Shown here piece by piece: positions 18,674 to 57,519 of a DNA stretch of 64,000 nucleotides (position 1 is its first letter; each line of letters begins with the position of its first letter). The DNA is from Hericium rajendrae (taxonomy: Eukaryota; Basidiomycota; Agaricomycetes; Russulales; Hericiaceae): positions 368,863 to 432,862 of the forward strand of contig JAVRDV010000018.1 in assembly GCA_033439255.1 (NCBI GenBank). Direction: 5' to 3'. The notes beneath the pieces are model-generated. The model did not search any database, was not told the origin of the DNA, and worked only from the letters and a program-made list of their open reading frames with translations. The position numbers were made by a program, and so were the translations under genes.

Positions 18674-18692
18674 TTTCTTGATTTAATGTAAC

Positions 18693-23765: not shown

Positions 23766-24012
23766 CATGCACAGCATTGGCCCTCTTCCACCAAGTGTCC
23801 AATGGATCATTGGCTGGCCCATTCGATCCCACGGGTTTTCAGTTGCTCGGCTGGTCCCCTACCGTCCATTGGGTCATTAATGGGACCATCCTCTTAACAA
23901 TTTCTACTGGTCATTGGGTCATTGGCCGGCCGGTCCTCTTACAATACCACTGTATATTCATCATTCACCGGTCCATCCTCTGACATCCATTGGGTCATCA
24001 CCATGCCGCGGG
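23766..24012. repeat. Inner continuation of the left terminal satellite
   Basis: Units with CATTGGGTCATTGGCCGGCC, CAATACCACTGTA and CATCATTCACCGG resume here and stop at TGCCGCGGGATCAATTGCAG. This shows that 18525-23760 sits inside the original array. Confidence 0.8.
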
Positions 24013-24248
24013 ATCAATTGCAGCGTGATGCTGTGGGATCAATCACAGTGGGGGGTTTCACTGCAGACAAAATTAGTCATTCAAAATATAAACCAGCCGT
24101 ATGGTATATAACATATACCCGCACATGTGTGCATTGCATAAAACACTAACTTTAACAATCACAACTGGTATCGCGCACGTGCCTGAATTGTCATGTGGTA
24201 GGGTTTCGCGGCGAGGTCTACACTTCATCTCCATCCATCACTTTCCAT

Positions 24249-24973
24249 ATGTCAACGAGTCCCTCACTAGACCCCCTTGAAGAGTTCCGCACCCGCGATA
24301 TGCAGGAACGAAAACGTCGGGTGGAAAAGTCTCTTGCTGCACTACAGGCATCGGAAGTCGGTGACACTAACCTGAATGTGAAGCAATGGGTACAGCAATC
24401 CATCTTCGCAAAGCCATGTCAATGTGCTAATCACACTATCACCATCGTTTTAGGTAGTACTTGCCAGAGATTTTGGCTTGATCGTTCATGGCATCCTCTC
24501 ATTCCTGAATCCACCTCAACCATGACTGCTCGTGCAGCTCGTGCACACACATCCCGCGGCATTGTTAGCCCAGGACTCACCCACGGCATGCCACCATTGA
24601 CCGATACACTCCCACGGTATAACGCCGCCCTCTTCTCGAGAGTGAGTTGAAATGTTTCTTGCCAGATCATACACACTAAATTCTCAAATCTACCAAATAT
24701 CTAGAATGGTTACTATACTGTACCTGGCTCTGCACCTCCTGCAGATCTTTTCGAGGAAACAAACAAAAGTTTTTGGAGGCTTTGAACGAGTCAGAAACAG
24801 CCCAACAGGAAGCGCGCGGTATGCTGCAGAGGGCGTTGGCTGCCGAGGATACCAAGGTGAAGCAGTGGAATAGCGAAATAGGGGTGGCGATGAAGGGTAA
24901 TCATAGTACACGTGGTGCCAATGCAGAGGACGTCACCGATGGCAATGATACAGATGAACGTACAAATTCATAG
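24249..24973 (+). CDS. Small coiled-coil-like gene of the giant element (gene A)
   Basis: I do not recognise the family. Exon 1 from ATG at 24249 encodes a charged helical start with EEFRTRDMQERKRRVEKSL and AALQ, then VKQWVQQSIF; a final frame from about 24773 encodes NESETAQQEARGMLQRALAA and a Glu/Asp-rich end terminating at 24973. GT-AG introns are plausible between about 24640 and 24765 but not settled. A CCGCGG motif lies inside the open frame (24554). Its place next to the KDZ gene suggests an accessory protein; no function is claimed. Confidence 0.5.
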
Positions 24974-25128
24974 ACCTTTTGTTCTTTAGCCTAAAGCGTT
25001 ATCCAAATCTGGCAGTAGTATTCCACAGTCCGATGATCTGATCAATGCCCCTTTCGGTATTTTGTCCACACTTCCGCACCCTCTGTCATCTTGTTCTATT
25101 TGACCAAGTTCGCTGGAAAACAAGCCAA

Positions 25129-25506
25129 ATGCAGAGCCATCCTAGCAACGACGGTTCAGACCAGGATATCAATCCATTGACGGACCAAACCCGCGGCTCA
25201 GGTGTGTGCAGAATTGTCGAGATCCTGGCATTGCTAATCAGTAGTGTAGACAGTAGCTGGCCGACCCTAGATGAATATGGATATGATGAGGAGGAGTGGG
25301 ATGGACCCCCTCCCCTAAATCCAGAAGACACGGACTTTCCCCAAGCACCTCCGCATTGCCTCGCACAACAGCTCCTCAACGAGTCTGCTTGGCGCATTCG
25401 TGATGCCATCCTATGGCTGAAAGACAAGGTGGATTACCCAGATTATGATATTATGAAGGATCAGATCTATGCCGGCATAAAGGCAGAATTGGCAAGTGGT
25501 GATTGA
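25129..25506 (+). CDS. Hypothetical acidic small protein (gene B)
   Basis: About 125 codons from ATG 25129 with a stop at 25504-25506. An acidic middle (DEYGYDEEEWDGPPPLNPED) is followed by a predicted helical end with CLAQQLLNESAWRIRDAILW. No family is recognised. It might join gene A as a later exon. It contains a CCGCGG motif at 25191 (…PC codons TRGS). Confidence 0.45.
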   Translation: MQSHPSNDGSDQDINPLTDQTRGSGVCRIVEILALLISSVDSSWPTLDEYGYDEEEWDGPPPLNPEDTDFPQAPPHCLAQQLLNESAWRIRDAILWLKDKVDYPDYDIMKDQIYAGIKAELASGD

Positions 25507-26340
25507 TCTGATTGGATTCTGATTGATGCTGAACCCGACTAGGATGCCGCGGGTTTCATCATCGGGTGGGCAGCCTTCCACTGCGAACCCCTCCTAGTCC
25601 ACGACTATTTAAGGAATGCGTACAACACATTCCACATATGCACCAAGGCATACGAGGCCCATAAGACCCCTGTTTCTGTGTCTCATATACCCTTTCAAAG
25701 GGGTAAGACTACCCTGACCAGAATTTACATGCCATTGTGGTGGATGGAACGTGGGGGGGAGTGGCTTTCAAAGAAGCAAGTGAATACCCAGGCAACAGCA
25801 CTGGATAAGGCTTTCTGAAAGGGAGGGGTTTCGATACCGCCAAACGTTCTGGACCATCTCATCGTCGCCATCCAGCTGGCTGTGACAGAGGTGAGCCACG
25901 ACCAATGCTGCTGGACTCTACTTACTTCTGTATTCATACAGATTTGACGCAATGACCCCATGGTGCAGAACATCGACAGTGCAATTACCCTGACCAAGAA
26001 CATGATAACCGGTCTGAAATCAAGGCAGGGTGAAGACGATCAGATGGCAATGGAGATGGGGGCCCTGCTCAAATGGGCCAACATAAGCAAAGCGTATCAT
26101 GGTATCGAAAACATGGCGGGCAGCTCTGGGGATATATGTGACAAGTGAATATGATAGGCAGTGGGATACAGTGCCACGGGGCATGGGATACAGTGCCGCG
26201 GGACATGGGATACAGTGCCGCGGGACGTGGTACCATGTGGTAGGATATGCTGCTGTGAGATTTAATGCCGCGGAATCACATCAAGGACATAAGTACTGCC
26301 TTAGTGACAAATGTATGCATTGATTTGGACCCGACTCGAA
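25507..26340. other. Spacer with three near-tandem CCGCGG motifs
   Basis: No firm gene; a 62-codon frame at 25960-26148 has no recognised domain. At 26161-26223 a 22-bp unit TGGGATACAGTGCCGCGGGA is repeated three times, the first with a CCACGG core, and a further CCGCGG follows at 26268. Single copies also lie at 25547. Confidence 0.6.
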
Positions 26341-26358
26341 CTCAATAACCTGAATATA

Positions 26359-29300
26359 TTACATGCCAAACTGCGATGGAGGATCGTCGCCTCTAGCAAG
26401 AGCAAATGCAGCTTCTGCGGTGGTTGCGAATTCTGCCCACATTGCACTCTGACGGGCTGCATATGCCAAGTGACCCAGTTTCCCCTTCCTGTCAGCCCAT
26501 ATCTTCCTAGCATTCCAGGCTGCTCCACGTGTCCTGAACCCGCGGACAGTCCACTCCATTTCAAATGGAAGCACTACCATTTGCTCCTCCCAGCGATGCA
26601 ACCGAGCACGGGTGCGGAGCCATTGGACACAATGGACTGTAAGACAAGGATGAACAATCGGACATGCAAGAATGATTTTGGCTCACAATCTGCCAGCCAT
26701 GTAGCCTCAGCGGAGTCCCCTTTCACATCTACACTCCAGAACCATGGCAGATTTGCATTCCGCAGCCCCCTTGCCGCGGGATCCAATACCGCGGTATGGA
26801 CCTTGAGCTGTGCCCTCTCCAGCAGCTGAAGTCGTTTCAGGACCAACGACTTGACTTTCAATGTAACTAATGCCTCTCTTGCCTTCCGATATATGCGGGC
26901 CTGCTGTTGTACTGTGTTTTCAATGGACATGACATCTGCCCAGGCTCGGGTTTTGCCGCGTTGACTGCCAGCATTGCGGACGTCATGTCTGAAAACAAAC
27001 ACCTTATGTCCCAATGCTAGACGAAGGCTCTGCAAAGCATCATTTGCTTGGCCCTCCCTCAACTCAGCCTCCTTGGCAACAAGCGAGCGCATCTCCGGCA
27101 ACGCGCGCAACTCGTCGTCCAGGCAGGATGGGATTGACAGGGCGACCCTCTCCACTGGGACATACACATTTGTGCCGTCTGTTGCAGCATTCCCTGGAGC
27201 ATGTTGCTGTTCCGGCTGCTCGATATCCTCACCATCTTCACCTACAAGGTCGAAGTCTTCCCCTTCATTTTCAGACAATGGGATGCCACCACCTGTGACA
27301 TCTGTATCCTGTGGGAGATAGTCGCCTGCCGCCCTCTCAAATGTCGAAACCCTGGCCTGGAGACGACGTCTGCGGTCTGCTAGATCATTTTTCTGCTCCG
27401 CGGTAAGGTTTTTTCCCAACTTGCACAGATGTGCTAGGATAGATAGCCTGCCAGTTCCATTAAAAGAATGAAATGCTGAATGAATAAGGCATTCTTTGGC
27501 AAGACTTACTGAGTTTCCTGAATGCGAAGTCCTAGAGTAATCCATGCCGCGGCACCTTGCCCCTTTTCCTTCTTTCGCTCTCGCTCATTCAATTTGGATA
27601 GGATCTCTGCTCTTGAAGGGGCTGTGTATCCCGCGGAAATCAACCCCTTGCCGTGGGAACACGTCGTACCAAGTTATGCGCACCTGTTTTGATTACTGTG
27701 TCATATATCGGGACCATGACTTCAGGCTTATCGCTGCGCTTATCCTGCGCACGCTGCTCTGCTTTGAGCCACGTGTCCCTATTCTCAGCCCCGACTGTTG
27801 CGTCGATATTTTCGAACCCAAGACGTGCCTCCGCAATGCCTGCCTTGCCCTCTTTATACTTGCAGGTAAGGTACGATACTGTGCACCATGATCAGGATCA
27901 ATGATTATTGCTCGGGAGTGAATGAACCCACCCATCCCTGTCATCTTTTTCCAATTTGAGTCATTCATATGGTCGTCCAGGACCTCTCGGCGATGAGAAG
28001 TCGTCATACCAGACGTACTGCGAGAAATCTCGTTCAGTGGTGCCCAGAGTGTTTCGACGACTTCCCCATCAAACTGTCTGGCTCCAATGATGTAGTTTGG
28101 TGAGAACGACGGGATGCAAGTATCCTTGTGTCCGTGGACATGGAACAGCCCAATCGCCTTCTTCATTTCCTTCAAACTCATTGGAAGGTTGAGATATGGA
28201 CTTCTCTCTACTCGCTCATTGAAATGCTTCCACCATTGACAAATGACGTCATAGTATTTCAAGATGATTTCTATCCCTTCAGTATTGTGGTTGATGGCCT
28301 GCACATGGAGTAGTCCATGTTCATTTGTCTGGTTGAGGGTGCATGAGCCATGCTGCGGGATAGCGATATGGAACCTGCGGGATGCACCTTTCGCCTTTTT
28401 GAAAGTCAACAACAGAATGGGGATAGTAAGCACCATGGCCACAGGCGGTAGCACCGATTCCGGTGTTTTCAATGTTGTGACGATCCGAGTTGACACAGTT
28501 TACAGCGCGGTGCTCATTGCAGGTGGAGCGCTAAAACATGGTCAAGCAACCTTGACCCGCGGCAATGCTGAACCACCCTACCTTGGTGACCTCCAAAGCA
28601 ACTTTAAGATGTTCCTGATACTCTTTCCTTCCCACCATGAATCCGGTGCCATCACTGAGCTGGACATCATTCTCTGGCTTTTGCATCTTCACCCCAGTCA
28701 AGTCAAAATTGCCATCCATGACAAATGTTCTTAAGAAAATCCACCTGACGAGGTATGAATCTGAGAGGAATATTCTTGAGGTGACATGCAGCTTACTTCC
28801 GTGGATCTAATTCCTTCCAATTGTCCGGCAAGTTGAACCCTGGCTGAGGGCATGCTGCACAAAACAGCGCAAATGCACCCGCGGCATCTGGCTTGTCCAA
28901 GTCCGTATGGCCAGCCCCAAACCATTTTCTCAACTTCATATCACGCCATTCTCTTTCTACTCTGAGAAGCTCTCTGTACCGATTCTGGAGGAATATCTGA
29001 TCAAAGAAATTTCCCTCTGATTACAAGAAAGTATGTATCTCACCGGTACACTGGCCGGAAATGCACTGCTCGTGAGCCGACGCAGTTTCGCATAGAAATG
29101 CCAGGCTGTGGTCTTGCATTCTAAATTATCCAGTCGGAAGTCATCCAAAACATGAAACGTGAATGCAGATTGTGGTGCATTGAAGGAGGCTGGGAAGAAG
29201 CCCATCCGAAACAGCTGCTTTGCTGGTGCCTCTGCATCTGGACACTGACACCATACGACTGGCAGCTGATGGACTCCGTTCGAATCGATCAAGCAGAGAA

Positions 29301-30088
29301 TGGGATTGCCTTCATTATCCATGTCCTGCTTGCAGACTGAATCTGTCTGGAAGTGCAGTGTGTTGTCTTCGTTACTCTGGTTCATCTGATCATCCTCCGC
29401 ATCATCGTCCTCATCCTCAACCCGGACTCCATCTCCCTTCCAGCTTCCCACGGCATGTGGACATGCTTCTCCACCGTGACCAAGGTGGACCCGAACACCA
29501 GCTAGACGCAGCCATGAAGGTGCAAAAAATTCGCCAGTCCACTTTTCAACGCAATGGAGTGGAAGTGCCAGATGGCGCCGTGCGTAGCATGCTGTGCATT
29601 CAAAGGGTCAGCCCACACAATCTCCACATTTCCACAGACCTGGGCGTTCCTTGCATGAGATGCACTTGCCATCCACAGGCCGACATTCATGCTCCAACAG
29701 GATATGGAGATAATCCTGATGCTCATCAAGCCATTCCCGTAGGAAGTCATGCTGGCCCTATTGTAAAGCCAGTCATGCCGCCGCACTACGTGACTCGATG
29801 CCAATTCAATACTTACCTTCCTTAATGTATTTGTGGTACACGATCGGGATCCACATCCGGTATGGTGTCCTCTTTCGGGCCCTCTCCAGATTGCTGACTG
29901 GATGCGCCACACAGTGGTGTGCTCCTGGCCCAGCGGGCCGGGTTGCTGGGATTCACATTACGGATTGGAATCGCAACTTGGCGATATCCGCGGGACGTCT
30001 CCTTGAGCACTAGTGCCACTCGAGCCGGTTGACTTGGATTGCCAAATTCCTTGCGACGAACCCTGGTAGTACTCTTTCTGGTTACCAT
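26359..30088 (-). CDS. KDZ-family transposase with CxC2 cysteine cluster (outer element)
   Basis: Read from ATG at 30086-30088 downward. Features in order: a CxC2 cluster at about 29500-29720 (KCISCKERPGLWKCGDC, then FECTACYARRH, then EKWTGEFF and LGHGGEAC); an N-terminal KDZ region at 29000-29400 (VVWCQCPDAEAPAKQL, FPASFNAP, FTFHVLDDF); CPQPGFNLP at about 28845; DGNF and an SDGTGFMVG stretch at about 28640; RNase H-fold acidic motifs VVDFQKGER (about 28400), YDVICQWW (about 28230) and FDGEVVETLW (about 28050); and a helical C-terminal domain (27500-26360). About eight short introns. A TGA at 29608-29610 interrupts the cluster. The family transposes DNA elements; in Agaricomycetes it is often linked to TET/JBP genes. 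Confidence 0.9.
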
Positions 30089-30180
30089 GAGATTGGGTGA
30101 AGATGACTGTAGAATACAAGAACACGGCAAACCTGCTCGACGAGAACATGTGTAAATTTGATCGATGGTATTCGTAACTC

Positions 30181-31517
30181 TTATCGATGGCAATTATCAC
30201 CATCTTCATCAGCTAGACCATCTCTATCCTGCAGCAATAAATCCGAATACTCCCACAGGTTCATCCAGCCTGGAGAAATAACCTTTGCCCATTCGTGAAC
30301 ATTGTCTCTCAAAAACCACGCATAGCAGATACGCTCTCTGCGGAATGGGCCCACAGCATGGTTCAGGGACTTCCCTGCCACGGCTATGACTGTGCGCCTG
30401 GGGTAGTTCAGGGTCCAATTCAAACCAGGAAGGTTGAATCGGGCCCCGGAGTAGTCTCCAATGGTACACAAGATGTCGTAGCCTCCAGTCAGGCCTTGGC
30501 TATCTCTGTGTGATGGGGTGATGCGATTTGATATGATGGAGACTCCGTTGAATACCGAACTCCATCGATGTGCAACTGAAGCCAAGTGTTCATCTTCCCT
30601 CTGTACGCCAATCACGGAAGCCGCGGCACGGTAAAGGTCTGGGTTGACCACTGCTAGAATTGCACTGATAAGAGCCGCGGATTCCGCAATATCTCGGAGC
30701 CATTTGAATGGTTTCGCTGTCATTTTGTTGCGACGTTTTGGGTTCAAATTTGCTGACACCGTCCAATCATCACCTGGCATCTGTACATACGTCAGAACGT
30801 AGCCTACGTATACGCATATATCCACTGCACATACATCATGACCCTGTGCAAACCATCCTGGAGAGAGGGTGACCGTGCCAGGTGAGAAGCGATGGGTTGC
30901 CGCAGGATCAATGAAGAGCCCAGCATACTCACGCCATGTTGCCTGGCTGGCGCTGGTAGCAACTTTGAAGTGTTCATTGAGGTGCTCTGTAGCCTCTAGC
31001 ATCTTCCTCTGCATGTGGAAATCATAAAAATATTGCATATCGCAACTGAAACTAGGCATACTTCACGCTCCTCTGACAACAAGTCAGGCAAGTACCACAA
31101 GAAGGCCTGTTCCCCGATATCGACCCCGACGCAAGGATTGGTCTGCACTGGGCGGTCAGATAGAGGCAGATAGCGCTTCAAGAATGCAGGGGTGTTCTCA
31201 GTCCTCCTCCGCTCTGCGTAGCAAGCCATGTCCCAATGTACTTGTACTGCCAAGCACGTCAATCAGATGCCGCGGTACGATGCCGTAAACATACCTCTGG
31301 TTTCCGCGGCATCTGCCAGTTTGTGGGCAATGAAGTCCAACTCAATCAGAACATGGAGAGGTAGTATTGCAGGCCTTCGTACATCGCTAATGCTCGATCC
31401 CGCGGCTCCCCTCTGTGCCAGAACATTTGCAAAGCGGGCAGAAAGATAGTCTGCCATTTCAACCTCGTATGGGCATGCAACCGCTCTGGAATAAGGGATG
31501 GGCAGGAGAGGTGACAT
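30181..31517 (-). CDS. TET/JBP-family 2-oxoglutarate/Fe(II) dioxygenase
   Basis: Fungal TET/JBP enzymes oxidise 5-methylcytosine in DNA. The catalytic core shows HRD (30502-30510) as the HxD iron motif in ITPSHRDSQG, then YDILCTIGDYSGARFNLPGL, the distal His in SLNHAVG (30358-30360), and RERICYAWFLRD whose Arg (30331-30333) would bind 2-oxoglutarate. Four exons join in frame by GT-AG introns near 31262-31308, 31012-31060 and 30770-30820, giving roughly 400 residues, the usual size for fungal members. No stop interrupts the exons. It lies 93 bp upstream of, and in line with, the transposase. Start at 31517 is the first in-frame Met; an earlier exon is possible. Identity of the class is secure; activity is inferred. 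Confidence 0.88.
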
Positions 31518-32083
31518 GGCAGGGGCAGGCAGGGTGACAGCAACGACACAGGTTCTATTGATGGTGCGTTCATTAATGATTGCTTATGTTTGGTTCCTAC
31601 GCGGCTATTGCTGGGCGTAGATACATCGTGCTGCCTTGCCATCTTTAAATTCATTTTTTGGGGCGGAATGTGTTTTTGTGGGTTTCTTATCACCGCATCT
31701 ATTGCTGAGGCATCGAAGCTGTGTTATGCTTTGTATGTAATCATCAAATGGCTGCTGGCACCACTCCGCGGCAGGGACAGCCCTTGCTGCATAGTGCAGT
31801 GTCGCTGGACTGCATGACTGACGATGTCTCTTGCTCATCGACATTTCAGAGACAAGAATATAAATAGTTTGCTGTGTGCTGTAGATTGAGACCGTTGCCT
31901 ACTACCTGACTGTTGGCCACTGCAACGTCTTGCTGTGCCCCAGACTTACGATAGCTTCACGCTAACCGACCGGGTGATTTAATACCGACGGCATTCGCTT
32001 GGGTAAGTGCTACGTGGTCCTCTCAACAAGTCAACCTACACCCTTACCCTCCCACATCCTCATTCCTACCTCCATCTGACAAA
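31518..32083. promoter_or_regulatory. Divergent intergenic region between TET/JBP gene and gene X
   Basis: 566 bp separate the TET/JBP start (minus) from gene X (plus). A CT-rich stretch (32034-32075, with CCTACACCC and TCCCACATCCTC) directly precedes the gene X ATG, as often at basidiomycete promoters. One CCGCGG lies at 31766. No clear TATA box. Confidence 0.5.
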
Positions 32084-32636
32084 ATGGCACCTCGCGGACC
32101 TTCCAAGGGCAAGATGAACAGCAAGAAGCCCAAGTCAACTGCGCCGCGGGACGTTCCCCCTCCCAAGGGTATCGATCCTAAGACCCTTTCGCTCCCGGAC
32201 AGATACAAGAAGGTCATCAAGGCATATGTCGAAGAGTTCCGGGATGGCGATAAGCAGGCACGACAGATGGTCATCAACAATGCCATGAATTCAATGAGGG
32301 ATAAGTATCCGAAGGAGTTCAAGGACTGGAAGGAAGACAGGTTTCTTGTGAAGCGGGTAAGCGTGCACCACATCATGTCGTTCCTTCCATATTTAATCCT
32401 TGTACCAGGCAGTCGCTCAGTGGTTCAACAACAATGGTAGAAAAAAGGAGACAGGCCCCGACCATCACTTCGTCAGCAAGTACAACAAGTGGCTGGTCGC
32501 AGCGCAAGTTAGAAAAGCAGACTTGGACGCATTCATAGCACACCATGCTCCTGACGTTAACCTCTTTTCGAATTGGCAACAATTACTGTCTGCGTTCCTC
32601 AAAGAACATGTGGATGCAGATGAGGAGCCGATGTAA
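32084..32636 (+). pseudogene. Gene X, 5' part: KDZ-linked protein with WFNN motif, split by insertion
   Basis: Exon 1 32084-32356 and exon 2 from 32409 join by a 52-nt GT-AG intron to read KRAVAQWFNNNGRKK, the R/K..WFNN..RKK helix typical of a KDZ-linked Agaricomycete family with a DNA-binding-like N-terminus. The frame meets TAA at 32634-32636, seven bases before the inner transposon's target duplication. The family normally continues with a YxxLAxEWxxSGPPVEVQ segment, which is found at 48114 onward, right after the inner element, so this is the 5' half of a split gene. The simplest joint (GT at 32633 to AG at 48111) would not keep frame, so decay, a small indel or another splice site must be assumed. 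Confidence 0.75.
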
Positions 32637-32642
32637 TAGAAT

Positions 32643-32650
32643 TTGCTTAA
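32643..32650. repeat. 8-bp target duplication, left (TTGCTTAA)
   Basis: TTGCTTAA (9 bp if the next G is included) is exactly repeated at 48080-48087. It borders inverted ends GATCC..TGACTA..TAGTCAC at left and, reversed, GATGACTAGCTAGTCAC at right. Confidence 0.9.
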
Positions 32651-32659
32651 GATCCTTGA

Positions 32660-33250
32660 CTATGTAGTCACTGTTTAGCTTAAATATCTGCACGGCTGAA
32701 TGTAGTCAACAGTATAGTCAATTTTTTAGTCACATAGATTAGTCGTACAATCTACTAGGATGTCTGGTATCATAGCAGTGTGACGGTATAGTAAACAGTC
32801 GGTGAAGCAGTCAGTCTGATAACAAGTCACCAAAATAGTCACTGTATATAGTCAAGAATATAGTGCTGTACAGTAGGTATGACTGCTTGCAAATAGTCAA
32901 TCAACTAGTCACCATCCGTAGTCACGGAACGAGTCGCCTACCTTGTGTAGCCGGTTCACTTAGTCGCAATGGGTGTGGACCTAAATGACCAGTGGCTTTC
33001 CAGCTATAGTCACTTTTGAGTAGTCGATAACAACAGTCAATACACAAACAAAGTACTCCTACCAAAGACAGTCATACCAACCAGTCGCATATAGATAGTC
33101 ATATCAACAAGTCGGTGTGAAGCAGTCATGCCAATTAGCTACAGCGAAGCAGTCATGTTTACAAGCCAAACTGAAATAGTCATTCCAACGAGTCGACATG
33201 GACTAGTCATGCCAATTGCGAACTAGTCAAATCCAATGAAGCAATAACAC
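32660..33250. repeat. Left subterminal TAGTCA/AGTCG repeats
   Basis: About 35 copies of TAGTCA, AGTCG or AAGTC words, spaced irregularly by 10-25 bp, with no coding signal. Such clustered short motifs near an end are typical transposase-binding subterminal repeats. Confidence 0.85.
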
Positions 33251-33351
33251 GACTATGTGGTCGCTATTTGTCGCTGCATATGAGCATCAGACCTACAGCT
33301 GGACCATCATCAGCAACATACGAAGTTCTGAAAAAGCTAAACTCACCTAGT

Positions 33352-34581
33352 CTAGTCAGAGTCCGACTCGATCTCAATCATGTCCGAAACCTGCTGGTAA
33401 GCTGGCTTGGATATGACCCGCCTTTTCCCTCTCGCACTCGAACACCCTTCTTCGAAGTCATCCTCACGAGTGCGCTTAAGGCATTGTTGAGAACCGCTCG
33501 CAACTGGCTGTCGATCGAGTGCCTCTATGACCTTTGATCTTCTTTGACCTTCGTGAACCACAGCGGTCGAACGTTCTCGTCCAAGATCGTTCGATCCCAG
33601 GACATCACAAAGTCTGGCACGGAAGTCTTCAGCATGCACATCTAGGTCTCGTCCCACAGAGACCTTGTGAAAGCGCCAGATAAACGGGACATCAGGAACG
33701 ATGGGTTCCCATCGACAGTCTTTGACAACACAGGAATCCCATGAGCACTGAACAGGATCGAAGATGTCGATGATGTTGGTGGGCTTGATGTCGAACAACC
33801 TAGACAAGACAGGGATGTGATAGAGAATATTGAATGTTTCAGCTTTCGGCCACGATAGTCGCTTCAAGATCGGAGAATGATCATCCTGCAGGACAAAGAT
33901 CAACTTCAACCCTATGCCACCTTGAGAAGAGCAACTCACCTGTGCGAAGAATACACTCAGGATACCTTCTTTCCCTTCATCACGTTTATCTTGCCCCTCG
34001 CGATCGCCAACGTACACCGTCGGAGACGATGGAATCATCCACTGCGGATCGAGTATATTACGGCGCAGAGGAGGCTCAGTTATTGCCCCGTGATGGGCCA
34101 CCGAAAGACTCTGTTGCTCTTCTGCGTGCCCTGGAGGCGAAGAATTCCAGCCATTTCTCACCTGTGGCAATGCTGGCCGTCCACCTCCCCCACGTCTTCC
34201 AGAACCACGGGGCTTCCCCAAATGCTCACGCTTCGCAATCGCTGCACCCTCCTTCGACAAACTAGCTTGCTCTGCTCGTGCACGGCGAAAATGCTCAATG
34301 AGTGCCAACTTTTCTGGAGAGAGTTGGTCAGTTATCGCATTCCATCCTGTCGCACAGGTCTCCCGTTCACGGCACTGAAAAGGCTGGTCAGCGGTATTGC
34401 GATCAAAGTATAGGTCGTGACGTACGATGTAGTACCAACGCCCGACGTTGGCATTTTCAGTCTGGTACTGTAGGCCCGACGCTCGAAGTCCATGGTCACA
34501 GACAACATGAATAGGCTGGGGGCAAGGCCCTGCTAGCTTCTCCACAAATGCTTTGAGCTCAGGATCTGCTTTGGGCAACAT
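33352..34581 (-). CDS. GRF-like zinc-binding protein with SIM-like C-terminus (inner element)
   Basis: About 390 residues. The N-terminus has CPQPIHVVCDHG, then TENANVGRWYYIV and a later FQC, resembling a GRF-type zinc finger (Cys, Gly-Arg-Tyr/Phe) but not a perfect match. A 54-nt GT-AG intron at about 33883-33936 is a multiple of three, so the frame also reads through. The C-terminus is basic then ends DMIEIESDSD, a SUMO-interaction-like motif. It may be an accessory nucleic-acid-binding protein of the transposon; the assignment is tentative. Confidence 0.6.
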   Translation of the reverse strand: MLPKADPELKAFVEKLAGPCPQPIHVVCDHGLRASGLQYQTENANVGRWYYIVRHDLYFDRNTADQPFQCRERETCATGWNAITDQLSPEKLALIEHFRRARAEQASLSKEGAAIAKREHLGKPRGSGRRGGGGRPALPQVRNGWNSSPPGHAEEQQSLSVAHHGAITEPPLRRNILDPQWMIPSSPTVYVGDREGQDKRDEGKEGILSVFFAQVSCSSQGGIGLKLIFVLQDDHSPILKRLSWPKAETFNILYHIPVLSRLFDIKPTNIIDIFDPVQCSWDSCVVKDCRWEPIVPDVPFIWRFHKVSVGRDLDVHAEDFRARLCDVLGSNDLGRERSTAVVHEGQRRSKVIEALDRQPVASGSQQCLKRTREDDFEEGCSSARGKRRVISKPAYQQVSDMIEIESDSD

Positions 34582-45297: not shown

Positions 45298-45417
45298 AGG
45301 CGAAGGGAATGGTGAATGTTCTTGGTATTTTTTGTTGCTCTATTGCTGTGATGTAGGATAATGGCCGGTCGTGGTGCACAGTTTTGGCATCAGCACCATA
45401 TATAAGGACGCCCTGAC

Positions 45418-46791: not shown

Positions 46792-46861
46792 TGTTCATTC
46801 CGTCTTATTGCATGGGTGAGGGGATGGATTGTATTTACAGTGCTTTGTGATCGGTAGGAAT

Positions 46862-47240: not shown

Positions 47241-47719
47241 TGCGTGACTGCATGCTTGCCAAGACCCCCCGATAATGGACATTCTTGGACTCGTTTCAGA
47301 TACGGACATTCGCTTGGTTTACAGTATAGCTTATTTTCGCAGCACCACCGCCCTCGCTCCATGCACCCCACCATGGACTCGATCCAGAGTGTCTGCTTTC
47401 TGTACTTTGTGTGCGCAATGGACTCTAGCTTATACCTTTGAACAGTTGACACATATGGGCTTACAATACCATATTATCCACCCGACCCATCGATGTGCCG
47501 TCCATACTCTGCGATGCTAACTTCTAACGGACAGGTCCTACAGATCTCGTGCCCCAGTCATTCTGTTGTCTCGACTCTGTGGTGCGTACCCCGTCTGCAT
47601 GCTCCCCATATCTTATCCAGCAGATAAATGCGCGCACTCGTCGGAGACAGGTCATACAGATATGGGGATCCTAGTTCTGCATCGTGTTCGTGTCTGATGC
47701 CGCCATGCTCACGCAACGT

Positions 47720-48079
47720 AGTCATGCAATCTAGTTGTTGTTATAGTCGTTTGATCTAGTCATTTGTACAAGTCATTGTACGTAGTCATTTAGTCACTCA
47801 TATAAGTCGTGGGATGTAGTCATTATGATAGCTCCTAGTATGTAGTCATTGCTTCAAGCATCTAGTCACAAAATCATATAGTCATTAAATGTAGTCGGAT
47901 TCTCACTCAAGCAGTCAGTGCGGAAAACTAGTCATTGAAAATAGTCACATTGTTATGAAACTTTTGTTGCTAATCTAGTCTACATAGATGAAATGAACAA
48001 TCATATATTTTAGTCATCAAAAACTAGCCTGCAAATTTGCTTAAGGCAGCTCTGATTAGGGGGTGACTAGCTAGTCATC
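47720..48079. repeat. Right subterminal TAGTCA/AGTCG repeats
   Basis: About 20 copies of TAGTCA, TAGTCG, AAGTC within 360 bp. As at the left end, most copies read TAGTC on the plus strand, so the motif is in direct, not inverted, orientation between the two ends. Confidence 0.85.
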
Positions 48080-48087
48080 TTGCTTAA
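48080..48087. repeat. 8-bp target duplication, right (TTGCTTAA)
   Basis: Exact copy of 32643-32650, directly after the right inverted end of the inner element. Confidence 0.9.
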
Positions 48088-48111
48088 GCCAATTCTGTTG
48101 CTACCCCACAG

Positions 48112-50131
48112 ATGAGATGGAGGGATATGCTGCATTGGCACAGGAATGGTCAGAAAGTGGGCCACCAGTTGAGGTCCAGCGGAAGTGAGTGCTTTCCGCA
48201 ATGATCTTGTCTTGCAATGCTGATTTTTACCCAGAAATGTGGACAACCGGGCAGTGAAATACATCAAGGATTTCTCAAAGGAGATGTTCCGGCATTGCGG
48301 GATGACCCTCATTGTGATGTCCGCCCATGTGAATAGCAAGGGCATGTTGTGCCAAGCAGAGTAAGTTCGTATTTGTTGGAATGTGTCATTTTACTAACTA
48401 TTTGCAGACATGACTACACGAATAACTTGATCCCAGACAAGAAAGGTTTTACGGACACCAACCCGAAATGGATAACGGAACCCAACGTGGCTGATGCATT
48501 CAGAAAGTGGGCAGAGTTCGCTTTGAGTGAGTGCATTATCTCCATCCCGCGGCATTCTCTCATGGCTCCCCCTCATGTTGTTTTGATGAATTCTAGATCC
48601 AGAAGTTCAAGGCTACGATGACATCGATGAAGAGGACGTGAGCATCATGGAGATCAAGTACAATGTAGACAGCAGCTGGCCTGTCCTTTTGCCGATGGAC
48701 GAGTGGAAGGTGTTGGACCGCACGACGCAACAGAAGTTCATCGGGGGTTGGCTCACAGCACACTACCGTAAGTCCCGTGGCATCATATACCATGCTCTGC
48801 AGATATTGACATTTGAGAAGACATCTCTAAAGGTGTGAACCAGGGACCTGTCCCCTGGGGTGATGTTTGGAAGTCTGAAACCGGGTACGTTAAGGCTGAA
48901 TACCTTCCAGATGGCTGGGACACTTGGCACCATCCCTCAAAATGGACTGTCAAAATGATGAACAAAATCTACCAGCACTGGATAGAGAGGGACGATGACA
49001 ACAAGATGCCATTCCGCTGGTCTTTTTGGGCTGACACTGTACGTGGCAAGGCGGTGCCCAAACGTGCCCTTGATCCGGTCCCTGGGCAAGGGCCATGCAC
49101 TGTGCTGCCCCGCAAGAATCGGCCAGCTCGTCCCGCGGCATCGGCTCCCGCGGCGTCACATCCCACGGCATCAGCACCCGCGGCATCAGCGTCCAGCACC
49201 GCAAAGAAGCCACGGAAATCTCGGCAATGTTCTCCATCCGAGAAATCAGCTTGCTCGACCCCGGAGCGATCTGAGAGCTCTGCGTCTGACGATTGGAAAC
49301 CTCAATCCAGTGGCAACTCAGACGAAGATGAGGAACAGGAACAGGAGCAGGATCTGGAAGAGGAACTGGAAGGCGAGGAGGAAGAGGAAGATTTTCAGAA
49401 GATGATGGATCTGGCTGACATCTTTGGTGACGAATCACAAGAACCTGTGCCCATGGAAGAGGACGATGAGGAAGAACATGTTCCAGGCCCAGAGGAAAGC
49501 TCGCCAGCTCCAGACGGGGGCAATGGCAGGCAAGGCAAGGTCAGACTTGGAAGAGGACTCCGACACTGGGTTCGAGGACTTACTTCAGTATGTACAAGAG
49601 GGAACCAATGGAGGTGGAAGCGATGAGGATGAGGATCCTGTGGTGACCAGTCGGCCCAGGGCTACCAACAAGGGGAATAGTCCAGGGCAAGCTGCGCCTG
49701 GGACCACCCCCACACCCTCCCGCCCATTAGCTGTCGGTGCGAAGTCGAGTGGAAGGCCTGACCACGGTCGAGCAGCCAGTGCAGTTCACTCCGACAGTGC
49801 AGCAGGTGCGCAACCCACCCGCGGGATCCCCCCCGCTCTGCAAGAACGGTCGCGTACCCCCACACCCCCACCAGCCCCCCTGTCCGCAATTCATGGATCA
49901 TACTTTGAAGATGACATATCAATGGGTGAAGAGGAGGCTGGCAGCGAACAAGATGTCGAGCGTCTTATGGCACCAAACAGAAGTGCTGGTCACCCAACTA
50001 CCGGTGACAGCCCAGCGGCGACTGGTACCTCCGATGCAAATAGGATGGATTATCTTCGTTCCTTGAGCATGATTAAAGAGTACCACGACCTTCTGGATGC
50101 CATCAACAGCTCTAAGGTATGTGGTCATTAA
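48112..50131 (+). pseudogene. Gene X, 3' part: KDZ-linked family, continues after inner element
   Basis: Exons read: 48112-48184 (YAALAQEWSESGPPVEVQ), 48235-48360 (MFRHCGMTLIVMSAHVNSKG), 48408-48526 (HDYTNNLIPDKKGFTDTNP), 48597-48767 (YNVDSSWPVLLPMDEWKVLD), 48833 onward (NQGPVPWGDVWKSETGYVKA, LPDGWDTWHHPSKWT, MPFRWSFWADTVRG), then a long acidic Glu/Asp-rich and Ala-rich tail. All joins are GT-AG and in frame. A one-base frame change near 49530 is needed to continue to 50131. With 32084-32636 this forms one gene cut by the 15.4-kb insertion. One intron (48527-48596) carries a CCGCGG motif, and four motif copies within 50 bp code the Ala-rich stretch at 49130-49190. Confidence 0.75.
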
Positions 50132-50168
50132 TTGTCATTACACGATCTGAACTTGGATGATATTGTAG

Positions 50169-51695
50169 AATTCCTACCCCCCGCGGGCAATGCATCTGCC
50201 TGAAGGGTGGGACACAAAGTGGGGTGGATGGTCTTTCCAGAAGGAGTGGCTTCCAAAATCCCTGCATACCAAAGAAAGCGTCCGACATGTGGTAGAGTGG
50301 ATCGATGGTGAGCCTTGGTACATTCCACTTTCTGAGAAGAGCAAAGGCAAGTCAACGAAGCCACGGGATCTATACTCAAAGAGGGCACTGTTAGTGTTGG
50401 CACTCCTTCTGGGCATGCTGATGCATGATGTGGAAGCGAAGACATATCATGACGAAAATGCGCCAAGCCAAAGCATGTGCATCAGTCAGGCTGGTTTGAA
50501 GAACAGTATGAACACGTGTTGGTTGCCACGATTAAACGAATGTCATCTGTGTTGGCTCATTCTGGCAAAAAGGTTCATATTCTATTCCAATTGGGCCACG
50601 GGTTTCTGATCTGGAAACTATCTCTAGGTGGCCGGCAAGTCGTCGGAGACCAGCAAGAAGCATCAAGACGATGACCAGGAGGCTGAAGAGGAGCCTGCAC
50701 CAAAGGTCCGTCTTCTGCCAGGATCCCGCGGTATCGATGACTCACCTGGAACTATTTGTTTAGAAACAGGGTGGTGCAAAGTCATCTCGGACTGAGACGC
50801 GGCGTGGACAGAGAGATGGGGCACAGCCACCTGCCAAGAAGGTATGTCTCTGGCTAAGACCTGGCCACATTGGTCACTTATCACGGTGCTATGTGTGTAA
50901 GGGGCCCAGTAAGCAGTCTGCGATGAGGAAGACTGGAGATATTGCCGAAGCTGAACAGGAACCTGCACCAAAGGTGTGACTCCTGCTAAGATGCAGCCAC
51001 ATGAGTAACTAACCACTGAGCCATGTCTCACTAACAGGCCACCGTCAAGTCGTCGCAGATGCTCATGAGACGTCAAGAGCAGGATGCCGCAGAAGAGCCG
51101 CGTGCCAAGAAGGTACCACTTCTCATACGATCCCACGGCATGGGTCACTGACTGCAGAGTTGTGTCCAGAGGGGGAATGGCTTGACGCAGTCGTCTGACA
51201 CTGGCAAGAAGCGTCGCCGTGGAGATGAAGTGGAAGGGCAGCCAGCCCCCAAACGTAACAAGAATCACATGCAGGCAGACATTACCTCTGCCAACATCCT
51301 TGAGGTGCCCTGTCAACCAAAGCCCAGCCAACGGGTCCTTGAGTTTGTTGTCATCCCTTGCTATGTTTATTTGGTACTAACAGCAAGGCAGGGCGATGGC
51401 GCAGGATGCTTTGAAGGCAAAACGGGGTAAGGCCAAGGCAGCTGGTCCTGTTCGGAAGAGTGTGGCAGGACCTAGTGGCATGAATCCCGTGGGAATGATC
51501 GATGTTCCTGCTGCTGGATCAAGCCGCGGGATTAGTACGGAAGAGCTCGAACGATCTGCAAGAAGGAAGGGGTGCCCTCTGGAGGTGGTTATTGAGACCC
51601 CAGCACTGCGAAAGAAACCCGCTGCACGAACGACCGGTGATAAAGCATCAGGCACCAGTGGGAAGGAAGGTGCTAGCAGCCGCAGAAGGCGTTAG
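50169..51695 (+). CDS. Repeated Lys/Glu-rich mini-exons downstream of gene X
   Basis: From 50169 a frame reads MHLPEGWDTKWGGWSFQKEW, echoing LPDGWDTWHHP of gene X. From about 50630 a series of short exons of 60-90 nt, each ending in a variant of EEEPAPKK or AEEPRAKK and followed by a GT-AG intron of about 50 nt, repeats four or five times, ending in a basic exon (51396-51695, …GKEGASSRRRR). This looks like tandem exon duplication in a basic, probably disordered tail, either of gene X or of a separate gene. Confidence 0.45.
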
Positions 51696-52016
51696 TATGG
51701 GCACCGACCACGGTGATATCCCGCGGTTTCAACTCCACGGGAACAGATACTGGTGTGGTTTCAACACTGCATAGAGGCTTCCATACAAAATTACTGGACA
51801 TTCATGACTCCCTGAAATGATTGTTACCTTACCTCCCATCTCAATATATGTCAGTTCTGTTTGCAGAGCATCAAGACCATGATTGATTCAAAGACCATGA
51901 TTAATTCAAAGATCACGATTAATTCAAGATGATGATATCGTAAATAGACATGTAAACCGACAATCGAGTGATATGCAGAACAAAACAATTAGATGCGAGT
52001 GGAAAGCAGGTGTCAA
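51696..52016. other. Convergent intergenic spacer
   Basis: AT-richer sequence between the plus- and minus-strand transcription units, with CAAGACCATGATT-type repeats at about 51870-51930. One CCGCGG at 51721. No gene. Confidence 0.5.
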
Positions 52017-55000
52017 TTATGCATGCCCGGCACCTGCAGAGTCCTCATTGGCGCTTTCCTGCAAGTCCCGGGGGGAGTGGGAACCCGCGGCACCAGCGGC
52101 ACCATTGGACTCCTGGGAGGCCAGACTCTGACCACCACCCGCGGCACCACTGCCAGACGGACAGGGCGTCAATGACTGACGGGAAGCCCACCCGAAGCCG
52201 AGGGTCAATGCCTTGTTCGGAGCTGGAGAGGCTGCTATAGTTGGGAGCTGACCGCCATCTGATGTGGACTGAGGGAGCCTCTCCGCATGAGTAGCAGTCA
52301 GTCTAGCGAGTTCAGCTCGCATTTCACCTCCTGCAGCCCGTTCCGCGGCTACCTCCTCCCTCATGCGACCCAAGTCGTTCTGCAGCATCTCGCGGTAAGA
52401 CTCCAGCAGGTCCTGCTTGAGCTGGCTTTGGCCATCCTGCATTGTCTTCTGGAAGTGGTTTCCCACTTCCTCGAGAACCGCGGGGTCGATCGTCTTTGAC
52501 TTCCCTCTACGTCCGCCATCCGGTGCTCCATGCGCTTCATGTCGTTGAAGTGGGCCGTGTTGATGCAGTCCATGCGGGCATCGATGTCCTTGAATCTCGT
52601 GGCCATCGCGGTCTTGTGGTCGTCAATGTCATACGTCAGCTTCGCAAACTTTGGCTCCATCCCGCGGAGCTGCTCGATAACACCGCCTTGGGTGCGAACC
52701 TCCATGATGAGGTGCTCCATTCGGGAGACAAGGCCATCATACTCTGTGCAAGATACCACGGGTTGGGATCCTGCGGGAGCCAAGGACGTCGATGCCGTGG
52801 GATCTTGCGAAGCAGCGGATGCCACGCCAGCCGGCATGTGGTTGGGAGGCGGCGGCAGGTGCTCGAACCCAGGAGGAAGGGGTGGAAGAGGGCCTTGACC
52901 ATGACAAATGAGGACATCCCAGAGCTCGGGTGTGGTGTAGTTGACCACCCCCCCACTTGTGACACCATAGGGTCGGAGGGAGCACTTCTTCTTGCCAGCG
53001 GTGCACAGGAGGCAGGCAGACCCCACTCCTGGGTAGGAGCACAGTTCCTTTTTGCCGTGCGCAATACAGTTCCCACAAGGACTCAGCTGGCAACACTGGT
53101 CAGTGTCGTGGAATGGAAACAGCGAAGGGATGTACCTTCACTGCTTTGGCAGCCAGTCAGAACTGGAGTTCAGCCTCGTTCAGCTGGCTGTCGCTGTACC
53201 GCTTTGTCTTGTCCTTGACCTCATTCTGCTACTCCTAATATCAGCCTCGCAAGACTTTTAGAGTATGACTTTCCACTACCTTCTGAGCAGTATCCGCGGG
53301 AGGGGCCTGTGATATGCCGCGGGATAAGGGCTGAGTGTGTGCAAACAACGGTCAGCAATGATCATTGCTCACCTTACTCCGAAGCACCTTCTGCACTGTC
53401 TCTTGTGGTGATGCACGCTGCTTCCCTTTGTCCTTCTGTTCATGACAGGATCAGTCCTGGTCAACAATGCAACAATGCCACTCACATTTACGATGGGGAT
53501 CTCCGCCTCTGTTTCAACAGGCTTTGCTGCCTGCTTACCTTTCTGCTTCTGTAAATGGTGGACCAAGTCAATTTGTGTCATCCTGATATTTGAAATACTA
53601 AGTACCTTGGTGGGAGGAGCATCACCCTGATTGTCAGGCGATGCTACCCGCTTTGTGTTCTTGCCCTTCTAGATTCCACGGCATTGGTGTCTACACCTCA
53701 AGGCATCGAGAGGTACTTACCTTGCTTGATGGTAATTCGGGCTCTGCTGCCTGGCTAGTAGGGCCCTTTACCCTTTGACGCTGCACAGCAGATGTTATGG
53801 TCAGCAGTGCAATCATCTTTGAAGGTGGGGCATCACCTTGGCCAAAGGCTCATCGTCGTCATCATCGTCGTCATCCTCGGTGGCGGCGGCATCCTTGTCC
53901 TCCTCGTCCTGGTGCTCCTCTTCATTCCGGACCTTGTCTTCATGCTCGTTCTCCTCGCCCTCAGCCATATCTTCGTCTATTGTGGCAGGCGGCTTGCTTC
54001 TGCGTGTCTGGAACCCGCGGGATCAGTGCACGGCACAAAATAGTTGTGGCTGCAGCTTACTTTCTTAGCCGGCATGGGCTCCTCATCCTCCTCCTCGTCC
54101 TCAGTGGGAACGAGGGCCGGCATCTTGTACACCCTCTTCTTCGGCCGAGAGGTCCCCTGGCCACTAGGTCCAGCATTCACCTCATCCTTCTTGGTCGACT
54201 GGGTGGGCTTGCTGCAGGCACGCTTCCGGCCCTGCTCCATCATCGTGTTGGTCTCCTCGTCCGAATTCGCATGCTTGTGGCTCTGCCGGGTGTCGAGTTC
54301 CACGAAATCCAGCTTCTTCTGCGTTTTGGGCTGACGGCACGGTGGGGCGGGATCCAGTGCTGTGCGTGGTGCGGGGGTGGTGCGTGCAGGGCATCCCCGG
54401 CGTGCGGTGGGTGCCGCGGTTTCCGCGGGTGCCGCAGGTGCCGCAGGTGCTGCAGGTGTCGCGGGTGCTGCGGGTGCCGCGGGTGCCACGGGTGCTGCGG
54501 GTGCCACGGGTGCCGCGGGTGTCGTCCGGGCTGGAGGTATCCCGCGTGTCATGCGCCCAGCGGGTGCCGAGGGTGACACGGTTTCCGTGGGTGCCGCAGG
54601 TGCTGCAGGTGTCACGGGTGCTGCGGGTGCTGTGGGTGCCGAGGATGCCGCGGGTGCCGCGGGTGCATTTGTGCTCTCAGGAGGAGGCCTCGCTGTTGCT
54701 GGAGGCGGGGTTGCTGTGGAGGCTTGGGCACCGGTGGGGACCACAGGCCTGTCTACCACAGGGCCAGGTGGATGGTGGGGCGCTGCTTGTGGAGCAGAAG
54801 GGATATCAGAAAATGTTAAAAACAAAAGAAATATGCTGGAATGAAAAATACCTAAGTGTGCCCACCAGATACCTGAGCCATCCGGCTGCCCCGCGGGACC
54901 CGCCGCCTCTTCCATCGTGGCCCAAATACGAACCCAAGCCTTGCATGGCTCAATACGCGGATCATCTTCGTAGACATCACGGATGCGGATGGGACGATTT

Positions 55001-55312
55001 TGTTCCTTGGCTTTTTGGCTTTCGGCCACATAGCTGAGAAACAAGGCCGAGAGGCCACAATGATCACCGGCAATCATGATCTTTTTCATGCCGGCATGTA
55101 CCTCATGCTGTCGGTGTGCGCACGGTAAGAAGAAAGTAGTCGTAAAAAATCAGTTGAAGGTAGCATACAACGTGGTTCTCCAGAAGGGCAGTCCAAGCGG
55201 CCACATCTGGGTTGTCCTGTTGCTTGTAACAAGCGATGGCCTGTGCCACGTATGCAACCCGCACGACGTGCTGGATCTGCAAGGGGGTCAGAGTGCGTTC
55301 TGGAGTGGACAT
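52017..55312 (-). CDS. Gene Z: multi-exon protein with Cys cluster and Ala/Pro repeats
   Basis: Start at 55310-55312 (MSTPERTLTPLQIQHVVRVA). Exon 1 ends after ALLENH; a GT-AG intron at about 55110-55175 joins to HEVHAGMKKIMIAGDHCGLS and RDVYEDDPRIEPCKAWVRIW. An Ala/Pro repeat (54.36-54.67 kb) follows, then several short Lys-rich exons (53.3-54.1 kb), then a Cys cluster at 52970-53085 (CGNCIAHGKKELCSYPG, then CLLCTAGKKKCS) and a coiled-coil-like end with MEHLIMEVRTQGGVIEQL. CxxC…C…CxxC…K.CS clusters are common in KDZ-linked Agaricomycete proteins; zinc or DNA binding is inferred. Exon boundaries in the middle are approximate. Confidence 0.6.
54361..54672. repeat. Coding minisatellite of 9-15 bp units (Ala/Pro) in gene Z
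   Basis: GGTGCCGCGGGTGCTGC-like units repeat about 25 times on the plus strand and encode PAAPAAPVAPAAP on the minus strand. Cores alternate among CCGCGG, CCGCAG, CCACGG and CTGCGG, i.e. the dispersed palindrome and its transition variants, suggesting the minisatellite grew from that motif. Confidence 0.8.
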
Positions 55313-55494
55313 TGTAAAGAGAGCAAACTGAGCAGATAGCAATGGGGAGTGGATGTGGACAGAAGAGATCAGATGCGACGGAGTTCACCGCGTCGTGTTG
55401 ACTTGTGCCGCGTCTCTGACAGCTGATCACGTGATCTCGATCGGGTAATCCGTGGCTCGCCACGTCAACACGCAAACTACCTAATCTGGTCAAC
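55313..55494. promoter_or_regulatory. Divergent promoter between genes Z and W
   Basis: A 182-bp spacer between two divergent starts. It holds the perfect 12-bp palindrome GATCACGTGATC at 55425-55436 (CACGTG core, a bHLH-type site) and an inverted pair CGTGTTGAC / GTCAACACG at about 55393-55401 and 55463-55471 centred close to it. This is a good candidate for shared control of both genes. Confidence 0.6.
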
Positions 55495-56637
55495 TTGTTG
55501 ATGAATTCCAACTTTGATCTCTCTCTCTTCGACGGGCTGTACACCATCCCGAAGGAAGAATCCCTGTCTCCTTTCATGCCAGTAGACGACTTGCCACCTT
55601 CTCGTGGTCCCGACACCAGCAATGCGAGCAGGGTGAATGCTCCAGACGATGACGATTGGGCGGCGATGTTGGAGGATGCCCCGGACATGTTGTGGGCTCC
55701 TGCGAAAAATGAAAACCAGGCCCAGGAGCCTGTTGATTTGATGGAAGAACTCGACATACTGCTCGCCAATGGCCCACAGAATGCCGCGGCAAACACAATG
55801 TCCATAGATAGGCCAACCAAGGACTAGATCCCGCGGGATGCTCATTGCCTCCAAACTGGGACCCTTACGTCCAACAGATCAGGAGAGAGAAGTCATCATC
55901 ATTCCAGACTCTGATGAAGACAGGCCAAAGAAAAAGGTATGTCTCCTGCATTCATCAATCATGCTGGCACCAAAATTCTTCAACAGCGGAAGACTGCTCC
56001 AGCAGGCAGCGAAGCCGCGGTAGGTGGTTGTTTGGATATCATGACGACCCTCGTACTGATGGAGGTCCTTCAGGTCAAGGGTGGCAATACCACAGCAGTA
56101 GGGGCCGTTATTGAGACTACATAATCAGTCTTAACACTGACTCACAGGGCTCATCTTCATGCCGCGGCAATCCGTTGCCATCTAACAGCAAGGGCAAGGC
56201 TGTAGACCAAGGCTCCAATGCACCGGTAAGAAAATATGGACTATGTGATGATTGGGTCTCATAGACATTTAGGGTTTCTGGACCACGAATATTGGTCCCA
56301 AGGGGGATCCAGAGGCCCGACAGGCCGCGTTGTCCACGATGGTAAATTATGATTTATGTGATTGAAGGTTGACCATTCACTCTCCATCTAGACAGATCTG
56401 GAGAGGAGTCTCCCACCCCTGGACCAGCCATTTTTGAATACCGGTGAAGTTGGACACCCGGCAGCGGTCATCATGCAGTCCGCCATTAGTTTGATGGCTT
56501 CCCAGAGGGACAATGCGGTGCGAAGCAGCAAGAGGTTTCAGGACATGATTGACATCCACCAGAAGGTAGAGGAATCATTGGAGCACTTGAAGGATCAGTA
56601 TTTTGCATGGCGCGAGGATCGTCGTTGGGATCATTAA
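55495..56637 (+). CDS. Gene W: small acidic protein with SUMO-interaction-like motif
   Basis: The first frame (55495-55827) encodes LFDGLYTIPKEESLSP, an acidic DDDDWAAMLEDAPDM and EPVDLMEELDILLA. A second frame from about 55838 encodes EREVIIIPDSDEDRPKKK, a VxIIxDSDED type SUMO-interaction motif, with a GT-AG intron after KKK (55936). The last exon (56434-56637) is helical, ending QYFAWREDRRWDH. The frames need at least two introns and the first join is unsettled (a TAG at 55825 precedes a CCGCGG motif). No family recognised. Confidence 0.5.
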
Positions 56638-57519
56638 TCAATGTGCTGTAGGATCCTGATCTGTGATGGACAATATTCAAGCATCATAGGAAATGGTGGT
56701 AGTAGACACTGTTTGATCCAAACGCTGTGCATGATCGCAGTCCAGAGCCAATTGTGAAAATGATGAATGAGTCCTTAGCAGTGTACCAGACTGGGGCATG
56801 ACCCTTGGCTTATGGGTCGACTCATAAGAGTAGAGGCAATCATGAAGGTCAGAAACAGCCCTTGTTCGAGATACCCCGGGATTGGTAGATAAGAACACGA
56901 GCGAGGTTGCTGCATGCAGGGGGGGAATCGTGCATTTGCCGCTGCCCCTGCACATGCACGGAAACGGGCGGCCTGAGGAAAGGGACGGAATTGTGATGCT
57001 GCAGCACATCACGAAAACATCCTAAAGCAAATGGTGGCTCGTTTGTCCCAAGACCTGCAAGCACTGTGGCCTTGTCCCTGCCGGTCACGGACGAGTCGGC
57101 AAGCATGGAGGGGGTTCGGGTCTTGGTGGTGGTCTGCAGCACCACAGAATCAACTTCGATAAATACCATCCTGGTGTGATGTGTGCTACAACACGGGTTC
57201 AGCAAGGTACTCGGTAACGGCCAGCTGCCCAATTTTCCTGGAACCCACCCAGACATCACCCTTCCCCTACCCGCAGCAATTGGGTTGTCCCCCCAACCCT
57301 ATGGCCCACGGAACCTATGGCCCGCGGAATGGGGTGGCTCTGGAGGCAAAGAAGCCCACCATGCATGATATGACATTATCTAAATTTTCGATGTGCTGCA
57401 GCACACATTCAGCAAGGTGCTCGGTAACGGCCAGCTCCCCAACCTACACCCACCCCTTACCCACGGCAGGTGGGGTTGTCCTTGCCTTACCGGCGGACCA
57501 GGAGCAGCCTGCTGCACTC
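56638..57519. other. Spacer before the right terminal repeats, no gene
   Basis: Only short frames on both strands. A repeated phrase (ATGTGCTGCAGCACA.. / TGTGCTACAACACGG, each followed by TTCAGCAAGG and CTCGGTAACGGCCAGCT) occurs at about 57181-57235 and 57393-57440. Confidence 0.5.

Follow-up and report, generated by a model that had tools for sequence, protein, structure and literature searches.

We analyzed a 64,000-nt stretch of the Hericium rajendrae genome (GCA_033439255.1, JAVRDV010000018.1:368,863-432,862, forward strand; hereafter the window, whose coordinates are used unless a contig is named), which carries a transposon encoding both a KDZ transposase and a TET/JBP dioxygenase and holding the palindrome CCGCGG throughout its body. 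This outer element, which we place in family A (the family names A-G are our own labels, set by open-frame lengths and alignments), spans 15923..59144, as judged from its inverted ends, the flanking letters and the alignment with A2, a family A copy at C2:2566k that is free of both inserts present in the window copy. The 8-bp sequence GTTGCCGG was seen by eye on both sides of the element (15915-15922 and 59145-59152) and is likely its target-site duplication. The A2 alignment begins at 15931; since the first left-end bases are unlike the right-end ones, the exact left base was set by the duplication. Once an inserted CpG-poor element (18520..23796; another copy lies at C17:461k) and a nested KDZ element of 15.5 kb (32625..48108, bordered by the duplication CAGATGAG at 32617-32624 and 48109-48116) are set aside, the outer element measures ~22.5 kb. 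Its ends are arrays of inverted 30-, 76- and 143-bp units, located subterminally on the left (15931..18519, 143/76-bp and 30-bp units, CCGCGG in some) and on the right (57400..59144). The body carries, on the minus strand, the exons of the KDZ transposase with its CxC2 cysteine cluster (26362..29757, exons by tblastn to family B; PF18758, 81.4 bits at a cut-off of 26.6; PF18803, 85.4 bits at a cut-off of 27) and the TET/JBP dioxygenase gene, which lies inside the element ends (30184..31583, tblastn; PF12851, 74.8 bits at a cut-off of 34.9). Gene X (31955..50606, plus strand) is split by the nested element, and gene Z (52364..53137, minus strand) encodes a protein with Zn2Cys6-like cysteines; neither gene gave a Pfam match above chance.

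For the counts we took the body as 23797-32624 plus 48109-57400 (18.1 kb), computed expectations from dinucleotides and additionally simulated the body with a first-order Markov model (n=200). CCGCGG occurs 52 times in the body, 23 times in the left part (24006 to 32144) and 29 times in the right part (48547 to 57322), against 2.8 expected and a maximum of 8 in the 200 simulations. A preliminary description of this DNA had counted about 50 cores in the outer element, and all twelve positions that it named carry the word; its counts of two in the nested element and none in the 18.5-23.8 kb block were also reproduced. The element is longer (~15923-59144) than the extent that it gave, and its end arrays also contain CCGCGG. 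An artefact of base composition or of coding repeats could draw on a few right-body sites that fall in a coding-like 9-bp tandem repeat (54409-54666); it is contradicted, however, by the dinucleotide expectation, by counting one site per 80-bp bin so that tandem copies collapse (43 bins against 2.84) and by codon-preserving shuffles, and we regard it as practically negligible. In these shuffles, which covered the 1412 codons of KDZ and TET coding DNA alignable to family B, the mean was 0.75 against 10 observed sites, and none of 2000 reached 10, so that the control named in the preliminary description as a possible refutation fails to explain the coding sites. Among seven further patterns examined in the same way, flanked CCGCGG was raised and six control words were not. 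The density is 2.4/kb in the KDZ and TET coding DNA and 3.0/kb in the remaining body.

The genome used for counts (46.77 Mb, 19 contigs) contains 15,912 CCGCGG, or one per 2.9 kb (0.34/kb), and 14,333 copies of the same word read backwards as a control; the density in the body lies above this genome-wide value. The 12-mer ATSCCGCGGSAT occurs 363 times in the genome and its reversed control not at all, and among the first 50 matches listed (C1 and part of C2), 35 lie less than 27 kb from a family A or B TET gene. When 70 sites were pooled over the window copy and A2 and read on both strands, T was found at position -2 in 66%, C or G at -1 in 82% and A at -3 in 46%, indicating that the flank preference reported earlier is real but degenerate. 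Because either C or G can occupy position -1, a discovery search for exact palindromes with 4-5 bp half-sites failed to pick up the family A motif.

Among the 46 TET matches in the genome, we examined the window's own locus and 14 others (15/46). Everted CGG triplets at spacing 0, that is CCGCGG, were the most enriched CGG arrangement tried in family A (52 against 2.8) and in the two family B copies, B1 (26 against 3.4) and B2 (14 against 2.4), and in B2 no other CGG spacing stood out. This arrangement was not the top one in two family C copies, F16 (3 against 0.9), G5, D, the nested element, E1 and E2, and in E1, E2, the nested element and D it stood outside the six highest; CCGCGG itself numbers 2 against ~1.3 in the C copies and 2 against 3.1 in the nested element. 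AT.CCG half-sites are raised in A, B1 and B2 (82, 73 and 77) versus 17, 32, 32 and 36 in C1, the nested element, E1 and E2, counts that come from loci of different lengths. Thus, the enrichment is a property of the transposon and not of the local genome, as first proposed, but it is not unique to this element, since the palindrome is also carried by family B and by a C2 satellite. No comparably enriched word was found in the D locus. In G5, words such as AGGAATCG (7 against 0.3 expected) are raised; this locus contains numerous inverted repeats that also occur in the 18.5-23.8 kb insert. The heptamers ATAGTCA and GTGACTA abound in the nested KDZ element (13 against 1.65 and 11 against 1.56), where they may be intron branch sites or a dispersed word of its own. 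The satellite (L030, C2:781900-785600) consists of ~20-bp units like ATATCCCGCGGCATTCCCTA, with ATSCCGCGGSAT in tandem and many CpG-decayed units; none of the 46 TET matches lies nearby, and the satellite might be what is left of an end array or might soak up the protein that reads the word.

Families A and B are far apart, with identities of 47% for the main TET exon and 46-80% across the KDZ exons. Their end arrays are unlike, being built on TCATTGAC/GGCCCGTC in A and on GTTGGCCAAC in B, while CCGCGG is common to both; therefore, the word is not simply a transposase end site. We considered whether family B has GTTGGCCAAC as another dispersed palindrome and rejected this, as it represents a 43-bp subterminal array: 31 of the 32 TTGGCCAA in the joined B1 locus (L013/L014) fall at 17.3-19.0 kb, in 43-bp repeats centred on GTTGGCCAAC. 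The difference between the end arrays bears on the explanation that gene Z or the CxC2 cluster of the transposase binds the sites for transposition, either folding or synapsing the long element or measuring its dosage, with TET being incidental. The element does encode KDZ and CxC2, and some subterminal units contain CCGCGG; however, the sites span the whole body, and the nested element has a KDZ gene without sharing the word. We consider this explanation unlikely.

How the sites arise can be seen in protein-guided alignments of A and B, in which coding sites are made by substitution, some of it synonymous (for example, ACC GCG GTA in A stands against ACT GCT GTC in B1, encoding the same amino acids). 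Nine A sites fall in four segments that align at the nucleotide level with B1; one is intact, one is decay-compatible, seven differ and none lies in a gap. Likewise, seven B1 sites fall in five segments aligned to B2 (one intact, two decay-compatible, four different, and again no site in a gap). When the comparisons are reversed, one of three B1 sites lies in a gap relative to A, and B1 has an intact or decay-compatible counterpart for each of the two B2 sites. These alignments speak to the idea of a tiny self-inserting palindrome of 10-12 bp, for which mitochondrial GC clusters offer a comparison. A single short word spread over exons, introns and spacers would suit such an agent, as would the one gapped site in the reverse A/B direction and the gaps that lie close to sites in some weak gene X alignments. 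On the other hand, the 0/9 and 0/7 sites in gaps contradict it for the aligned coding sites that they cover, and the degenerate flanks provide no fixed ends, making a mobile palindrome very unlikely.

Over 16,531 compared positions (24004-56038, nested element left out), 275 differences separate the window copy from A2, and 265 of these are transitions. A total of 220 CpGs differ between the copies, 212 of them as CpG versus TpG or CpA, and this near transition-only pattern points to strong methylation-driven decay of CpGs in the genome. Four sites of the two-copy pool lie in a tandem stretch absent from the window copy, and the size of the pool suggests that the word was probably denser in the common source of both copies. 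The palindromes might be remnants of CpGs that were protected from such decay in a CpG-poor element (CpG observed/expected ratio (o/e) ~0.6-0.8 in 2-kb bins), and the decay variants CCGTGG (28 against 9.0) and CTGCGG (17 against 9.7) are indeed raised in the body. Three results render this account highly improbable. First, CpGs within CCGCGG have changed between the copies as fast as others (33/132 versus 187/779). Second, the other two-CpG words TCGCGG (6 against 5.4), GCGCGG (2 against 5.5) and ACGCGG (9 against 4.4) are hardly raised. Third, protection cannot make 52 sites from 2.8 expected.

A candidate reader of the word is encoded by gene Z. The Zn2Cys6 pattern is C-x2-C-x6-C-x5-12-C-x2-C-x6-8-C, and the gene Z products of A and B contain six Zn2Cys6-like cysteines with the halves swapped, followed by a tail that resembles a coiled coil by eye. 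The cysteine spacing in B1, and in a similar cluster at E1, is x2, x6, x8, x2, x6 and fits the pattern. In the window and the 14 other loci, the gene Z cysteine pattern was found only in A, B and C loci (six matches); eight shuffles of 264 kb yielded none, against five in the real set. By coordinates, a gene X match and a gene Z match each lie within 25 kb of 16 of the 18 A/B TET loci, and gene X has 16 matches in the genome, each less than 20 kb from an A or B TET gene. The locus C4:371k was rejected as an independent zinc-cluster locus, as it is a B fragment. The window gene Z departs in frame from A2 beyond ~residue 220. A protein search returned one relative, a predicted Hericium alpestre protein without the cluster part, and a search of solved structures with the family B gene Z gave nothing meaningful.

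Zn2Cys6 proteins usually bind CGG pairs as coiled-coil dimers, according to the available portion of PMC5559640, and CCGCGG is bound by yeast Pdr1/Pdr3 in the excerpts of PMC3091778. A host zinc-cluster factor, such as a Pdr-like activator, might therefore bind the sites, the element having gathered host enhancer sites. The genome contains at least 18 Zn_clus matches, and the word is a known site of this kind; however, an activator would need promoter sites and not dozens across the body, two other kinds of resident in the same genome (the C copies and the nested KDZ element) show no enrichment, and a candidate binder is encoded by the element itself. We find a host factor quite improbable.

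We instead favour a reading, to which we give about an even chance, in which a zinc-cluster dimer encoded by the element uses the palindromes as its operators, probably in the service of TET-based anti-silencing. The predicted gene Z dimer would bind CCGCGG as two everted CGG triplets without a gap, with TGCCGCGGCA or TCCCGCGGGA as predicted target words, and would coat the element along its length, marking it as self. The element's own TET, perhaps together with gene X, would oxidise and remove 5-methylcytosine there, and the family would stay transcribed and mobile. Sites would be selected while the lineage is active, and silenced copies would lose them by ordinary CpG decay. The two parts of this proposal differ in strength. 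From the match between the site and the protein type, we infer with fairly good support that a gene Z dimer binds along the element; that gene Z also targets TET to the element is inferred from the presence of both genes in one element and from the plant VANC precedent described below.

Several observations weigh against this proposal. Regarding the protein, the first half of the cluster reads x8 in the window A copy where x6 is usual, the basic half of the cluster stands second, and in the B2 copy a stop codon closely follows the cluster; gene Z also has no Pfam Zn_clus match at E up to 5, and we therefore call it only Zn2Cys6-like. Regarding the sites, their spacing in the element is no more even than random, and exact conservation is 1/9 from A to B1 and 1/7 from B1 to B2, compared with 10/323 and 81/616 for other GC-rich hexamers. 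Site positions are thus no better kept than those of other GC-rich words; they change while CCGCGG remains dense, and selection would be possible on density, not on place. The motif CpGs decay like the others, as noted above, which argues that resident copies receive no local protection. The coding excess is weak in B1 (3 against 0.94; 114/2000 shuffles) and absent in B2 (1 against 0.72; 1040/2000 shuffles), and 15 of the first 50 ATSCCGCGGSAT matches listed lie away from A/B TET genes, nine of them in one satellite. Because A and B are related, their common genes and motif are not independent evidence. Finally, the E1 TET locus has a similar swapped zinc cluster (L005:1155-1307) without enrichment of the CGG palindrome. 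This cluster and the E1 TET are 9 kb apart, the CpG o/e of the locus is about 0.93, and a Pfam scan of the L005 minus strand at E up to 0.01 gave no match; E1 is possibly a domesticated or different TET system.

A broader proposal is a self-recognition code, in which each KDZ-TET family would encode a swapped-half zinc-cluster dimer with its own word, point-mutated through the body including exons, and TET would demethylate that family only. The words would be CCGCGG for A/B and ACCGGA for C. Family C KDZ-TET has its own zinc-cluster-like segment, CNGC..RRERC (L027:6419, minus strand), and an open hexamer search of two C copies found ACCGGA 14 times against 2.6. WCCGGW, from the same kind of search, occurs 25 times against 7.4 and the true palindrome TCCGGA only 4 times against 1.6, and F16 and C1 have almost identical DNA along 3.8 kb, so WCCGGW is suggestive only as a family C word. 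We put this code forward tentatively and consider it rather doubtful.

TET genes have spread with mushroom transposons, and the question addressed here is how the enzyme finds its own element. A dense word that only two related families share with a satellite, together with a candidate binder encoded beside TET, makes such targeting directly testable. KDZ elements were reportedly described in a paper from 2014. The outer element resembles the TET-positive Kyakuja/KDZ transposons of Agaricomycetes in combining a KDZ transposase with a TET/JBP gene (Kojima 2025, PMC12730594, in the portions available), but Kyakuja is described there as making 7-bp duplications, as ending in CA..TG and as lacking terminal inverted repeats, in contrast to the 8-bp duplication and long inverted arrays found here. 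The right end of the outer element and the A2 end read CA.. inward; the 8-bp duplication and the inverted end arrays led us to file the element as KDZ and not as Kyakuja. That survey speculates, in the text available, that transposon TET acts without target specificity, and a term search of its main text found neither CCGCGG nor zinc (PMC12730594). The likeness to the Zn2Cys6 regulators Pdr1/Pdr3 is that CCGCGG is a diverging CGG pair and that a cluster with a coiled coil is the usual dimer layout (excerpts of PMC3091778 and PMC5559640). The palindromic, exon-spanning and TET-linked form was not found in the literature searched, outside which most subscription papers lie.

Maize Spm TnpA is known to bind only at subterminal repeats, and no TET is known to take part in its action. 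It offers a parallel in that a protein made by a transposon acts in association with demethylation of that transposon (PMC10398659, in part). VANDAL/VANC of Arabidopsis is alike in that a family gathers one short motif at a family-unique density, and related VANDAL families use different motifs; binding of the motif by an element protein is shown for VANC and proposed here (available parts of PMC5735166 and PMC10398659). A dense family-specific motif is found in H. rajendrae as well, though here a satellite and two related families have it in common; same-orientation non-coding tandem arrays are not. The VANDAL motif YAGTATTAY, as given in those excerpts, forms same-orientation tandem arrays that are mainly non-coding, whereas the word described here is palindromic, mostly dispersed and also exonic. 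Unlike VANDAL, the present element encodes TET and a zinc-cluster-like protein, and we know of no link between VANC and an enzyme of the TET type. Sequence-specific anti-silencing is thus a kind of system known from plants, and by analogy the mushroom case would be like VANDAL/VANC but distinct; if the favoured reading is true, it would be a second, independently evolved transposon system in which a DNA word and its reader coevolve, here within protein-coding sequence.

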